Part shown: positions 32,484 to 38,430 of the stretch, in pieces
How the letters are laid out: each line of letters starts with the position of its first letter
How positions within the stretch are numbered: position 1 is the stretch's first letter
Source of the DNA: Streptomyces katrae
GTDB lineage: Bacteria > Actinomycetota > Actinomycetes > Streptomycetales > Streptomycetaceae
Direction of reading: 5' to 3'
Assembly: GCF_002028425.1 (NCBI RefSeq)
Contig: NZ_CP020042.1
Coordinates: forward strand, 2,852,001-2,916,000
DNA length: 64,000 nucleotides
Position numbers and translations under genes: made by a program
Notes under the pieces: generated by a model
Databases searched by the model: none
Told to the model about the DNA's origin: nothing
The model's input: only the letters and a program-made list of their open reading frames with translations

Positions 32484-34100
32484 ATGCAGCAGGCACCAGT
32501 GCTGACGAGCGCCGCGGACCCGGCGTCCGAGGCCTGGCGGACCAATGAGGCCGCCCACCGCGAGCTCGCCGAGGGCCTGCGCGCCCGGCTGGACGCGGCC
32601 CGTCTCGGCGGCGGCGAGAGGGCCCGCGCCCGGCACACCGCGCGCGGCAAGCTCCTGCCCCGCGACCGCGTGGACACCCTCCTCGACCCCGGTTCCCCCT
32701 TCCTGGAGCTGGCCCCGCTGGCCGCCGAGGGGATGTACGGGGGGGCGGCCCCGGCGGCCGGCGTGATCGCGGGTATCGGCCGGGTCAGCGGCCGCGAGTG
32801 CGTGATCGTCGCCAACGACGCCACCGTCAAGGGCGGCACGTACTACCCGATGACGGTCAAGAAGCACCTGCGGGCGCAGGAGGTGGCGCTGGAGAACCGG
32901 CTGCCCTGCCTGTACCTGGTCGACTCGGGCGGCGCCTTCCTGCCCATGCAGGACGAGGTCTTCCCCGACCGGGAGCACTTCGGCCGGATCTTCTACAACC
33001 AGGCCCGCATGTCCGGCGCCGGCATCCCGCAGATCGCGGCCGTCCTCGGCTCCTGCACGGCGGGCGGCGCGTACGTCCCGGCGATGAGCGACGAGGCCGT
33101 CATCGTGCGCGGCCAGGGCACGATCTTCCTCGGCGGCCCGCCGCTGGTGAAGGCCGCCACCGGCGAGGTGGTCACGGCCGAGGAGCTCGGCGGCGGCGAG
33201 GTGCACTCGCGCACCTCCGGCGTGACCGACCACCTCGCGGAGGACGACGCGCACGCGCTGCGGATCGTCCGGAACATCGTGGCGACCCTGCCCGAGCGGG
33301 GGGCCCTGCCCTGGTCGGTCGAGCCGGCCGAGGAGCCGAAGGTGGACCCGTACGGGCTCTACGGCGCGGTCCCCGTCGACTCCCGCACCCCCTACGACGC
33401 CCGCGAGATCATCGCCCGCGTCGTGGACGGCTCCCGCTTCCAGGAGTTCAAGGCCGAGTTCGGTCAGACCCTGGTCACCGGCTTTGCCCGGATCCACGGC
33501 CACCCGGTCGGCATCATCGCCAACAACGGCATCCTCTTCTCCGAGTCCGCGCAGAAGGGCGCCCACTTCATCGAGCTGTGCGACCAGCGCGGCATCCCGC
33601 TGCTCTTCCTCCAGAACATCTCCGGCTTCATGGTCGGCCGCGACTACGAGGCGGGCGGCATCGCCAAGCACGGCGCGAAGATGGTCACCGCCGTGGCCTG
33701 CGCCCGGGTCCCGAAGCTGACCGTGGTGGTCGGCGGCTCGTACGGGGCGGGCAACTACTCGATGTGCGGCCGGGCGTACTCGCCGCGCTTCCTGTGGATG
33801 TGGCCCAACGCCAAGATCTCCGTGATGGGCGGCGAGCAGGCCGCCTCCGTCCTGGCCACCGTCAAGCGCGACCAGATCGAGGGCGCGGGCCAGGAGTGGC
33901 CCGCCGAGGACGAGGAGGCCTTCAAGGCCCCGGTCCGCGCGCAGTACGAGGAGCAGGGCAACGCCTACTACGCCACCGCCCGGCTGTGGGACGACGGGGT
34001 CATCGACCCCCTGGAGACCCGGCAGGTGCTGGGACTGGCCCTGACCGCGTGCGCGAACGCCCCGCTCGGCGAGCGCGGCTACGGCATCTTCCGCATGTGA
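32484..34100 (+). CDS. acyl-CoA (methylcrotonyl-CoA type) carboxylase beta subunit
   Basis: Carboxyltransferase subunit of 538 aa. Seen: [21 protein letters not shown] near 55, [19 protein letters not shown] near 120, [15 protein letters not shown] near 150, [32 protein letters not shown] near 190, and a C-terminal [22 protein letters not shown] near 418. These motifs are of the methylcrotonyl-CoA carboxylase branch, not the acetyl/propionyl-CoA branch. It is the first gene of a four-gene operon with biotin carboxylase, HMG-CoA lyase and an acyl-CoA dehydrogenase, which supports leucine/isovalerate catabolism. The promoter carries two TetR operators. Confidence 0.9.
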
Positions 34101-34137: not shown

Positions 34138-36330
34138 ATGTTCAGCACTGTTCTGGTGGCGAACCGGGGCGAGATCGCCGTACGGGTCATCCGCACCCTG
34201 CGGGAGCTCGGGATCCGGTCCGTGGCCGTCTTCAGCGACGCCGACGCGGACGCCCGGCACGTACGGGAAGCCGACACGGCCGTCCGGATCGGCCCCGCTG
34301 CGGCCGCCGAGAGCTACCTGTCGGTCGAGAAGCTGCTCGACGCGGCCCGGCGCACGGGGGCCGAGGCCGTCCACCCCGGGTACGGGTTCCTCGCGGAGAA
34401 CGCGGCCTTCGCACAGGCCTGCGCCGAGGCGGGGCTGGCCTTCATCGGGCCGCCCGCCTCGGCGATCTCCCTGATGGGCGACAAGATCCGGGCCAAGGAG
34501 ACGGTGAAGGCCGCCGGGGTGCCGGTCGTGCCCGGGTCGTCCGGGAGCGGGCTGTCGGACGCCGAACTCGTCAAGGCCGCCGAGAAGATCGGCATGCCGG
34601 TGCTGCTGAAGCCCTCGGCGGGCGGCGGCGGCAAGGGCATGCGCCTGGTCCGGGACGCGGGGCTGCTCGCGGAGGAGATCGCGGCGGCCCGGCGCGAGGC
34701 GCGCTCCTCCTTCGGTGACGACACCCTGCTGGTGGAGCGGTGGGTGGACCGGCCGCGGCACATCGAGATCCAGGTCCTGGCCGACGCCCACGGCAACGTG
34801 GTGCACCTCGGCGAGCGCGAGTGCTCGCTCCAGCGGCGCCACCAGAAGGTCATCGAGGAGGCCCCCTCGGTCCTGCTGACCCCGCAGATCCGGGCGGCGA
34901 TGGGCGCGGCGGCGGTGGAGGCGGCCCGCTCCTGCGGGTACGTCGGCGCGGGCACGGTGGAGTTCATCGTGCCGGGCGGCGACCCGTCCTCGTACTACTT
35001 CATGGAGATGAACACCCGCCTCCAGGTGGAGCACCCGGTCACGGAGCTGATCACCGGGCTGGACCTGGTGGAGCAGCAACTGCGGGTGGCCGCGGGGGCT
35101 CCGCTGGCCTTCGGCCAGGAGGACGTCCGGCTGAACGGGCACGCGATCGAGGCCCGGGTCTGCGCGGAGGACCCGGCGCGCGGGTTCCTGCCGTCCGGCG
35201 GCACGGTGCTGGCGCTGTCCGAGCCCTCGGGCGGCGCGGTGCGCACGGACTCCGGGCTGCTGGCCGGGGTGGACACGGGGTCGACGTACGACCCGATGCT
35301 GTCGAAGGTGATCGTCCACGGCCCCGACCGGGAGACGGCCCTGCGGATGCTGCGGGGGGCCCTCGCGGACACGGTGATCCTGGGCGTCCAGACGAACGCC
35401 GGCTTCCTGCGCAGGCTCCTGGCCCACCCGGACGTGGTGTCCGGGAACCTGGACACGGGGCTGGTGGAGCGGGACCTGCCGTCCCTCCTGCCGGAGGGGG
35501 TCCCCGCCGAGGTGTACGCCGCCGCCGCGCTGCTGGCCCAGGCCTCTCTCCCCCACCCCGCCCCTTCCCGAAACCAGGGGCTCCGCCCCCGGACCCCCGC
35601 GCCTCAAACGCCGACGGGGGGTAGCGCGGGCGCGTGGGCGGACCCGTTCTCCGCCGCCAACGGCTGGCGCCTGGGCGGCACCCCGGCCTGGACGGTCCAC
35701 CACTTCCGCCTCCCGGGCCAGGACCCGGTGACGGTCCGCACCCGCCAGCGGGGCACGGAGCAGGAGATCCTGCTGGGCACGGACACGCAGTCGCCTGCAC
35801 AATCCGCAGCCGACAACCGAGCCGCACCAAATCCAGCCTCGCCTGGGGGTACCCCCGGACGGAGTCTGGGGGAGATTGAGGCGCGGGGTCTGGGGCAGAG
35901 CCCCAGGACGCCGGCCCGCGGCCGCATCATCAGCCTCACCCCCGACCGCCTCACCGTGGAGCTCGACGGCGTCACGCACCACTTCGCCCACGCCACCTCC
36001 CCGGAGGGGACCTGGCTCGGCCGCGACGCCGACTCCTGGCACGTCCAGCGCCACGACCCCGTCACTGCGAAGGGCGCGGCCGGCGCAAACGCCGACACCC
36101 TCGCCGCCCCCATGCCCGGCACGGTCACCGTCGTCAAGGTGGCCGTCGGGGACAAGGTGGCGGCCGGGCAGAGCCTGCTGGTCGTGGAGGCGATGAAGAT
36201 GGAGCACGTCATCTCCGCCCCGCACGCCGGCACCGTCACCGAACTCGACGTCACCCCCGGCACCACGGTGGCCATGGACCAGGTCCTGGCCGTGATCACC
36301 CCCGACGAGGAAGCCGAGGCGAGCGAGTGA
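34138..36330 (+). CDS. biotin-dependent acyl-CoA carboxylase alpha subunit, with repeat-derived insertions
   Basis: Biotin carboxylase plus biotin carrier protein, 730 aa. Seen: [15 protein letters not shown] at residue 5, ATP-grasp loop GGGGKGM near 162, [14 protein letters not shown] near 291, and the biotinylation site EAMKMEHV with K687 near the C-terminus. Together with the beta subunit it should carboxylate methylcrotonyl-CoA. Odd: the region between the two catalytic parts (residues about 470-592) contains two Pro/Gly/Arg-rich inserts encoded by palindromic repeats that look like Streptomyces intergenic repeats, kept in frame. The protein is therefore longer than the usual 640-680 aa. 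ATG 34138 is the start. Confidence 0.9.
35547..35626 (+). repeat. palindromic dispersed repeat, copy A, inside the carboxylase alpha gene
   Basis: Begins CTCCCCCACCCCGCCCC, continues with CCAGGGGCTCCGCCCCCGG and GCGCCTCAAACGCC (35601-35614). The core 35574-35608 is the reverse complement of copy B 35875-35908 with few differences. It encodes [19 protein letters not shown] in frame. Confidence 0.8.
35790..35916 (-). repeat. palindromic dispersed repeat, copy B (opposite orientation), inside the carboxylase alpha gene
   Basis: Core ATTGAGGCGCGGGGTCTGG with GCAGAGCCCCAGG at 35875-35908 matches copy A inverted. It carries an extra palindromic segment, CTGGGGGTACCCCCGGACG (35843-35861) with AGTCTGGGGGAG. 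It encodes [19 protein letters not shown] in frame. Confidence 0.8.
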
Positions 36331-37262
36331 ACGGGCTCCCCATGACCGTCCCGTCGCCCGCCGGGCTCCCCCCGCGGGTGCGGATCCACGAAGTCGGCGC
36401 CCGCGACGGGCTCCAGAACGAGAAGACGGCCGTCCCCACCGAGGTGAAGGCCGAGTTCATCCACCGGCTGGCCGCCGCCGGCCTGACCACCGTCGAGGCC
36501 ACCAGCTTCGTCCACCCCAAGTGGGTGCCCCAGCTGGCCGACGCCGAGCAGCTGTTCCCGCTGCTCTCCGACGTCCCCGCGGACCTCCCCGTCCTGGTGC
36601 CCAACGAGCGCGGCCTCGACCGCGCCCTGGCCCTCGGGGCCACCCGCATCGCGGTGTTCGGCTCGGCCACCGAGACCTTCGCCGCGCGGAACCTGAACCG
36701 TACGGTCGCCGAGTCCCTGGCCATGTTCGAGCCCGTCGTGGCCCGCGCCAAGGAGGCCGGGGCGCACGTGCGCGGCTATCTGTCGATGTGCTTCGGCGAC
36801 CCCTGGGAGGGTGCGGTCCCGGTCCCCCAGGTGGTCCGCACCGCCAAGGCCCTGCTGGACCTGGGCTGCGACGAGCTGAGCCTCGGCGACACCATCGGCG
36901 TCGCCACCCCCGGCCACGTCCAGGCGCTGCTCGGCGAGCTGAACACGGCGGGCGTGGTCACCGGCCGGATCGGCGTGCACTTCCACGACACCTACGGCCA
37001 GGCCCTCTCCAACACCCTCGCCGCGCTCCAGCACGGCGTGACCACGGTCGACGCCTCCGCCGGCGGCCTCGGCGGCTGCCCGTACGCGAAGAGCGCCACC
37101 GGCAACCTGGCCACCGAGGACCTGGTGTGGATGCTCGACGGCCTCGGCATCGAGACCGGGGTCGACCTGGCCGCCCTCACCGCCACGAGCGTGTGGATGG
37201 CCGAACGGCTGGGCCGTCCCAGCCCCTCCCGTACCGTCCGCGCCCTCTCCCACAAGGAGTAA
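36327..37262 (+). CDS. mvaB: hydroxymethylglutaryl-CoA lyase
   Basis: Splits HMG-CoA into acetoacetate and acetyl-CoA, the last step of leucine catabolism. 311 aa, TIM barrel. Seen: catalytic Arg/Asp in [12 protein letters not shown] near residue 25, [11 protein letters not shown] near 193, metal-binding His pair in [14 protein letters not shown] near 220, and the flexible loop [15 protein letters not shown] near 247 with the essential Cys. The GTG start overlaps the carboxylase stop by 4 nt, so translation is coupled. Confidence 0.93.
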
Positions 37263-37269
37263 CGAAGCC

Positions 37270-38430
37270 ATGCCCCTCGACCACCGGCTCACCCCCGAGC
37301 ACGAGGAACTCCGCCGCACCGTCGAGGCGTTCGCGCACGACGTGGTGGCACCCAAGATCGGCGACCTGTACGAGCGCCACGAGTTCCCGTACGAGATCGT
37401 CCGCGAGATGGGCCGCATGGGCCTGTTCGGCCTGCCCTTCCCGGAGGAGTACGGCGGCATGGGCGGCGACTACCTCGCCCTCGGCATCGCCCTGGAGGAG
37501 CTGGCCCGCGTCGACTCCTCGGTCGCCATCACCCTGGAGGCGGGCGTCTCCCTGGGCGCCATGCCCCTCTACCTGTTCGGCACCGAGGAGCAGAAGCGGG
37601 AGTGGCTGCCGAAGCTGTGCTCGGGCGAGGTGCTCGGCGCGTTCGGCCTGACCGAGCCCGGCGCCGGCAGTGACGCGGGCGGCACCCGCACCACGGCCGT
37701 CCGCGACGGCGACGAATGGGTCATCAACGGCTCCAAGTGCTTCATCACCAACTCCGGTACGGACATCACCGGTCTGGTCACGGTCACCGCGGTCACCGGC
37801 CGCAAGGCGGACGGCCGGCCGGAGATCTCCTCGATCATCGTCCCGTCCGGCACCCCGGGCTTCACGGTGGCGGCCCCGTACTCCAAGGTCGGCTGGAACT
37901 CCTCGGACACCCGTGAGCTGTCCTTCGACGAGGTCCGGGTGCCGGTCGCCAACCTGGTCGGCCAGGAGGGCCGCGGCTACGCCCAGTTCCTGCGGATCCT
38001 CGACGAGGGCCGGATCGCCATCGCGGCGCTGGCCACCGGTCTGGCGCAGGGCTGTGTGGACGAGTCGGTGAAGTACGCCAAGGAGCGTCAGGCCTTCGGG
38101 AAGGCGATCGGCGACAACCAGGCCATCCAGTTCAAGCTGGCCGACATGGAGACGCGCGCCCACATGGCCCGTCTGGGCTGGCGGGACGCGGCCTCGCGGC
38201 TGGTGGCGGGCGAGCCGTTCAAGAAGGAGGCGGCGATCGCGAAGCTGTACTCCTCCACGGTCGCCGTCGACAACGCGCGGGACGCCACGCAGATCCACGG
38301 CGGCTACGGGTTCATGAACGAGTACCCGGTGGCCCGGATGTGGCGGGACTCGAAGATCCTGGAGATCGGCGAGGGCACGAGCGAGGTCCAGCGCATGCTC
38401 ATCGCCCGCGAACTGGGCTTCGCAGGCTGA
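37270..38430 (+). CDS. acdH: branched/short-chain acyl-CoA dehydrogenase AcdH
   Basis: FAD-dependent acyl-CoA dehydrogenase of 386 aa. Seen: LTEPGAGSDAGGTRT near 128, CFITNSGTDIT near 157 and IHGGYGFMNEYPVARMWRDSKI near 340. The catalytic Glu is E368 in EIGEGTSEVQ, the medium/short-chain position. That differs from the dehydrogenase at 27.1 kb, which uses the isovaleryl-type position. It is the last gene of the carboxylase/lyase operon, 7 nt after the lyase. Streptomyces AcdH is known to act on branched-chain acyl-CoAs and feeds polyketide starter pools. Confidence 0.9.
   Translation: MPLDHRLTPEHEELRRTVEAFAHDVVAPKIGDLYERHEFPYEIVREMGRMGLFGLPFPEEYGGMGGDYLALGIALEELARVDSSVAITLEAGVSLGAMPLYLFGTEEQKREWLPKLCSGEVLGAFGLTEPGAGSDAGGTRTTAVRDGDEWVINGSKCFITNSGTDITGLVTVTAVTGRKADGRPEISSIIVPSGTPGFTVAAPYSKVGWNSSDTRELSFDEVRVPVANLVGQEGRGYAQFLRILDEGRIAIAALATGLAQGCVDESVKYAKERQAFGKAIGDNQAIQFKLADMETRAHMARLGWRDAASRLVAGEPFKKEAAIAKLYSSTVAVDNARDATQIHGGYGFMNEYPVARMWRDSKILEIGEGTSEVQRMLIARELGFAG

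Follow-up and report, generated by a model that had tools for sequence, protein, structure and literature searches.

We identified, in the alpha-subunit gene of a carboxylase of Streptomyces katrae, two in-frame inserts that are very probably copies of a dispersed, structured palindromic Streptomyces repeat placed into two loops of a protein that most likely tolerates them. The gene lies in the window analysed here, a stretch of 64,000 nucleotides of contig NZ_CP020042.1. The best reading of the material as a whole is a REP-like Streptomyces palindrome, analogous to the Rickettsia palindromic elements (RPE) and tolerated in disordered loops.

The gene product matches the Pfam profiles PF00289, PF02786, PF02785, PF21139 (BT_MCC_alpha) and PF00364, and a fold search returned 9yx0, the 3-methylcrotonyl-CoA carboxylase of M. 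smegmatis, as its top structural match. The gene and its neighbours are arranged as follows.

32484..34100, + strand: carboxyltransferase (beta) subunit, the upstream partner gene (PF01039)
34138..36330, + strand: coding sequence of the MCC-type alpha subunit, 730 aa, with biotin carboxylase, BT domain and biotin carrier; ATG at 34138
36327..37262, + strand: hydroxymethylglutaryl-CoA lyase, the downstream gene (NF004283, above cut-off)
37270..38430, + strand: acyl-CoA dehydrogenase, the next gene downstream (PF00441, PF02770, PF02771)

This order of beta subunit, alpha subunit, HMG-CoA lyase and acyl-CoA dehydrogenase would fit a role in leucine breakdown. Inside the alpha subunit, the following elements were recognised.

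35545..35622, + strand: copy A, a whole type A unit, 26 residues in frame (aa 470-495), with at least 46 genome matches including itself
35550..35569, - strand: C-rich module of copy A, whose minus strand reads GGGAAGGGGCGGGGTGGGGG, a G-quadruplex-type motif by inspection
35577..35590, + strand: first hairpin core of copy A, GGGGCTCCGCCCCC, a pattern match with compensatory changes over 64 distinct rows
35595..35622, + strand: second hairpin and tail of copy A, starting CCCCGCGCCTCAAACGCCGACGGGG, with covariation at columns 32-61 and 36-60
35839..35874, + strand: type 2 palindrome GGGGGTACCCCCGGACGGAGTCTGGGGGAG, 12 residues (aa 568-579); 14 further genome places match this part alone
35875..35908, - strand: copy B, a 3' half unit in inverse orientation, 10 residues (aa 580-589), supported by the repeat finder, genome matches and alignment to copy A

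A preliminary description of this DNA had proposed that two inverted repeats lie inside the alpha subunit and that both keep the frame open, and each point was confirmed. Positions 35574-35607 aligned with the reverse complement of 35876-35907 over 34 columns (29 identities, 3 mismatches, 2 one-base gaps), and the local score of 39 for 35540-35625 against 35860-35915 lay above the maximum of 27 reached in 300 codon shuffles of the gene. The repeat finder returned the pair 35595-35612 / 35871-35888 at 89%, and both copies share the one open frame that runs from the ATG at 34138 to the stop at 36330. The account of two copies holds for the inverted pair and is refined in its composition, A being the whole unit and B its 3' half with another palindrome before it. 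Site A falls inside the matched part of the BT profile PF21139 (aa 456-557); copy B lies just past this stretch, and the predicted model places it in a loop of that region. An Rfam search over 35400-36050 gave a single chance-level match only (mir-9230, E 2.2).

The type 2 palindrome directly precedes copy B, and the composite of both was matched at two genome places. Among close relatives the two are joined in only part of the clade, the type 2 protein pattern occurring in 15 of 120 clade proteins. This second family (GGGGGTACCCCC...GTCTGGGGGAG) has dispersed copies of its own and also stands beside the first family at G000:C1:2219250 and 1956820, G000 being the present genome.

The unit consists of the C-rich module and two hairpins, with a G+C content of roughly 80% and about 66, 69 or 72 nt between landmarks chosen on the consensus, the true unit ends not being fixed. 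Over 64 distinct rows, 85.4% of hairpin cells were paired versus 76.7% in shuffles, in an alignment of 69 of the 100 listed copies chosen for equal arm lengths, a choice that favours the first hairpin and not the second. Two-sided changes occupied 59 cells versus 19.1 in shuffles, and sliding the partners by 1-3 columns left at most 55.0% paired. The two hairpins are thus maintained by compensatory changes.

The left arm, the right arm and the next run were all equal in length in 98 of 152 copies, with 33.9 expected (sd 4.0) by a statistic that ignores the shared ancestry of subfamilies. Within this genome alone, all-equal triples numbered 29 of 53 against 11.4 expected, the two window copies being counted with the other genomes, and the third run was uncorrelated with the left arm (rho 0.04, p 0.8). 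The unit varies in steps of three because these runs tend to gain or lose bases together. Such steps also appear among intergenic type A copies from other genomes, whose lengths cluster at 65, 68 and 71 between a second set of landmarks (9 of 15); coding selection is therefore not needed to produce them. Five of the six frames of the unit are open, which is likely at this G+C content.

A bolder proposal, which we put forward as a tentative possibility, is that of a "frame-safe" mobile palindrome. Its three runs would change by one base each together, so that the hairpin would evolve in exact three-nucleotide steps, with the frame restored and the middle of the peptide changed; such an element might time and again create disordered loops in core proteins of the genus and seed minisatellites, as in Smc, without a REP-type transposase in this genome.

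A genome search with copy A (35547-35620) yielded at least 45 other matches, four of them in one tandem array; this is probably a lower bound, because 40 of 177 candidates were scored. Placement was determined by fetching about 2 kb on each side and calling genes with our own codon-usage script: 36 matches fall between genes, 8 fall within five genes and 1 is partial, at loci chosen for holding copies, in which 84% of the fetched DNA was called coding. Two of the copies counted as intergenic are doubtful on inspection by hand, namely L141 (a permease/ATPase gene junction with several open frames) and L150 (a small ORF). The preliminary impression of a common Streptomyces intergenic repeat, with matching copies between the genes of this genome, is borne out by these placements and by a match to copy A in 82 of the 101 Streptomyces genomes, a set that includes this one.

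Some loci show further structure. At L141, an array of about twelve 12-bp repeats (~1780-1990) stands beside the type A copy at the ABC permease/ATPase junction, where several frames are open. By inspection, the intergenic copies at L146, L151, L157, L164 and L172 end in a long inverted repeat of the second hairpin (GCCTCAAACGCCGGCGGGGCT...AGCCCCGCCGGCGTTTGAGGC), and these ends resemble a paired element or a two-way terminator.

It is also conceivable, if unlikely, that the repeat acts on DNA or mRNA (as a transcription end, in RNA stability, or as a nucleoid or replication site) and is kept in the gene for that function and not for its peptide. Of the gaps of at least 60 bp, those that contain the hairpin core are divergent in 2 of 32 cases and the others in 27 of 93 (p = 0.007), as expected of a 3'-end element, and the compensatory changes that keep the hairpins, together with a strand that is G-rich by inspection, point the same way. 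However, a terminator inside the gene cluster would be expected to cut off the downstream genes, and in part of the clade site A holds a truncated copy or none.

The C-rich module exists in two forms, type A (CCCCACCCCGCCCCTTCCCGAAAC) and type B. Allowing at most 1 mismatch, the type A 24-mer has 7 sites in this genome and is present in 40 of the 101 Streptomyces genomes, with the highest count (79) in genome G096; the reversed-pattern control gave 0 matches in the same 101 genomes. At this threshold, a class-wide draw returned the 24-mer in 10 of 40 Streptomyces genomes versus 0 of 354 of other genera (reversed control 0); Streptomyces alone represented its family in this draw, and the apparent restriction to the genus thus holds relative to genera of other families. 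Type B, at no more than 2 mismatches, was present in 10 of the 101, and 33 copies lie in this genome.

The two forms differ in placement here, genes holding 5 of the 7 type A copies and 1 of the 33 of type B (p = 0.00018). Elsewhere, 10 of the 75 type A copies examined were intragenic, 62 were intergenic and 3 were partial, and none of the 25 type B copies was intragenic (p = 0.06), in a count that omits copies less than 600 bases from a stretch end and samples copy-rich genomes (20 stretches of G096). With just 10 of 75 copies intragenic in other genomes, type A therefore has no general preference for genes; in the present genome, older type A copies likely persist in genes and newer type B copies fill intergenic gaps. 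We considered whether type B is barred from genes by a length that is not a multiple of three and rejected this, as type B mostly shares the length phase of type A between the same landmarks (8 of 9 copies in other genomes, 5 of 7 here). Lengths that include the 5' hairpin were mixed among type B copies.

In-frame insertion recurs in unrelated proteins. The further hosts in this genome are Smc (TIGR02168), HrpB (TIGR01970), IolB (TIGR04378), HemA (NF000744), which carries a degenerate unit, and a helicase with PcrA/UvrD matches below the family cut-offs. In other genomes, the 10 intragenic type A copies lie in nine genes, encoding sarcosine oxidase alpha, a CobB/CobQ-type amidotransferase, a PfkB kinase, MCC alpha, HrpB, Smc (beside the hinge domain), two double ABC ATPases and a BPD_transp_2-ABC fusion with two copies. 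Some of these may represent one event shared by descent, as for Smc and HrpB in G000/G054 and the ABC ATPases in G054/G004. The peptides read from the host genes show that four of the five open frames of the unit are in use.

Two of the hosts have features of their own. The smc gene of this genome (L142:1999-2380) holds a whole unit followed by six tandem half units of the LDVRGSAPGPAPQTPAG type, an array that looks like a coding minisatellite grown from the insert, apparently in the hinge region. At G000:C1:2850880 (L156), 1.1 kb before the window, an inversely oriented type A unit lies in frame close to the start of iolB.

To trace the history of the two sites, we aligned the nearest 120 proteins to the product of this gene. 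Among the rows listed, site A in this clade is occupied by the full unit, occupied by short forms, or empty. Text patterns detected no trace at site A in 32 of the 120 (one further protein was unparsed), and at least one of these 32, P0002, holds a remnant. The relative P0001 (729 aa, 99% identical) reads the middle of site A in another frame, with 13 residues versus 14 here, which is the peptide expected from run lengths of 4/4/4 versus 5/5/5 (P0001 is known as a protein only). In the present gene, the first G of the left arm has changed to A.

Outside the clade, most orthologues lack the inserts, among the matches listed. The exceptions were read by eye, since the pattern-based tree labels were partly wrong (L069 falsely B; L029 and L129 missed for B); the tree left out one of 139 rows for its length, and the rows read by eye exclude L140. 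L131 is filled at site A, and its sister row L029 is empty at A and has a unit at site B; L129 is filled at both sites and L057 at neither; L136 is filled at A and L008 is empty there; L013 is filled at both. Site B alone is occupied in L004, L047, L083 (a short remnant) and L208. A few lineages outside the clade thus seem to have gained inserts separately; the number of independent gains is a reading and not a count, because the quick tree leaves 59 of 128 inner branches open. We also considered whether gains at the two sites are connected, for which the lineages are too few.

These rows qualify what had been expected of the orthologues. Both inserts are absent from most of them outside the clade, and close relatives carry the same residues by descent; more distant orthologues with the same residues in the same place do occur in a few lineages, though their sister rows lack the inserts.

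The copy-B loop shows other variation as well. In L047 and L208 (MCC alpha of other Streptomyces), it carries a reverse unit of 13 residues, preceded in L047 by many GAGAEPRR-type repeats. In L105 (MCC alpha of G002), the loop is swollen by a different, Thr/Gly/Asp-rich low-complexity run of more than 100 residues. In G012 (L087, L132), the MCC alpha gene runs into nonsense sequence whose peptide we take to be typical of translated Illumina adapter; this is probably an assembly fault at this gene, and G012 was set aside.

The AlphaFold2 model of the protein, whose residue numbers count from 34147 and so fall three residues short of the ATG at 34138, has a mean pLDDT of 83.8. In this numbering, pLDDT falls below 50 at 476-507, 547-585, 643-648 and the last five residues; insert A occupies 467-492, and the type 2 palindrome with insert B occupies 565-586, the overlaps with low pLDDT being 476-492 for A and 565-585 for the B inserts. 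The loop of A follows the helix 454-466, and that of B lies between the strands 538-545 and 590-597. According to the model, the inserts would thus sit in two low-confidence loops.

Conservation differs between the inserts. Across the 120 proteins, identity to this gene is 0.94 in the biotin carboxylase part, 0.92 in the helix before site A and 0.97 in the carrier, versus 0.61 with 30% gaps in insert A. The half unit of insert B reaches 0.83 (8% gaps) and the type 2 palindrome 0.84 (67% gaps); the stretch between the sites stands at 0.83 and the stretch after insert B at 0.77. Insert A thus drifts in sequence, length and reading frame among close relatives, and insert B drifts no more than its flanks, so a constraint on B or a role for it is possible.

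Recruitment of the inserts as linkers that tune the BT domain, subunit coupling or the reach of the biotin carrier, close to the preliminary suggestion that they may change biotin-carrier swing or beta-subunit interaction, appears quite unlikely. Hits at two sites of one enzyme occur across several lineages, and the flank-like conservation of insert B in the clade would agree with such a role. Against it, insert A is lost, truncated or frame-changed in close relatives, its middle is read in another frame by a relative that is 99% identical, and most orthologues outside the clade, among the matches listed, do without both inserts. That the protein merely tolerates the inserts is most likely.

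Two further explanations have next to no probability. Convergent Pro/Gly-rich low complexity arising from G+C-rich codons without a mobile repeat would draw on the open frames that high G+C favours (1463 of 2000 shuffled units keep 5 or 6 of them open), but it is contradicted by identity at the DNA level, with the same DNA in four frames across genes and also between genes, and by the empty reversed-pattern control. An assembly artefact, for which the nonsense sequence in G012 might speak, is contradicted by inserts that recur in many of the 120 proteins from many records and at the DNA level in other genomes.

Under the preferred reading of a dispersed palindrome tolerated by the enzyme, a copying agent would duplicate the unit and a copy would insert into the carboxylase gene. 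Genic copies would survive where the frame is kept, no stop arises and the site is an exposed disordered loop, and would then decay through in-frame deletions and matched run-length changes. A profile search for the REP-type helper, the Y1 transposase (PF01797), gave 0 matches in this genome. Of the 15 element-bearing genomes searched, among them the present one, 4 contain it, and G096, with its 79 type A copies, has none; a Y1/RAYT helper is therefore not required. Insertion junctions and target duplications could not be read, as filled and empty rows are too diverged at the site. Mobility accordingly rests on copy number and on presence and absence, because no junction or duplication was established and no helper transposase was found in this genome.

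In-frame palindromic repeats in proteins are described chiefly for Rickettsia and some REP-rich genomes in the literature consulted; they now appear in a free-living, G+C-rich, industrially used genus and in core proteins (Smc, HemA, carboxylase). Neither PMC3733652 nor PMC12306157 mentions "Streptomyces" anywhere in its main text. Among the listed titles of open-licence papers, none concerned this repeat or in-frame palindromes in the genus, which is no proof that none is published, and four 13-14-base strings of the repeat, searched against open-licence full texts, returned one unrelated virus paper. The system offers a case of how "junk" repeats can become protein linkers, which the protein most likely just tolerates. 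Because many filled and empty relatives exist, the fate of a new coding insert becomes testable in terms of gain rate, decay and effect on the enzyme, and the matched run lengths pose a precise question on palindrome evolution.

Among known systems, MITEs are characterised as non-autonomous, repeated and structured (PMC10969869, in excerpt). The present repeat is likewise repeated and structured, with evident internal hairpins; a terminal inverted repeat pair and a target duplication are not established for it, its unit ends not being fixed. ERIC and RU of enterobacteria are intergenic repeats of 103, 127 and 168 bp that are also found joined in frame to genes, with more than one frame used, according to the excerpted text of PMC2759123. 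Compared by description, they share with our repeat the combination of intergenic and in-frame genic copies and differ from it in length and hosts.

REP sequences of the GTAG and CGTC families are described, in the part of PMC3733652 consulted, as short palindromes near gene ends, mainly between unidirectional or convergent genes; sometimes they are intragenic, many of these in genes of DNA synthesis and repair, among them recBCD and UvrD/Rep helicase (PMC3733652, same part). The present repeat is similarly palindromic, hairpin-forming, multicopy, mostly extragenic and seldom placed between divergent genes, and it occurs in Smc, HrpB and a PcrA-like helicase. It differs in that this genome has no Y1 transposase, and inspection revealed no GTAG or CGTC tag at the ends of copies, as far as these can be read in a unit whose ends are not fixed.

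RPE are palindromic repeats of ~150 bp that lie in frame inside unrelated genes and are predicted to be compatible with the fold (PMC10969869 and PMC3733652, both in excerpt). The Streptomyces unit differs in being ~66-72 nt long and G+C-rich, in its three-step variation, in being mostly intergenic outside this genome, and in having been seen only in the window's genus within the class-wide draw. Compared by description, it shares with RPE that it is palindromic, dispersed and in frame in unrelated conserved genes. The parallel drawn in the preliminary description is a fair one, because in-frame insertion recurs in other proteins.
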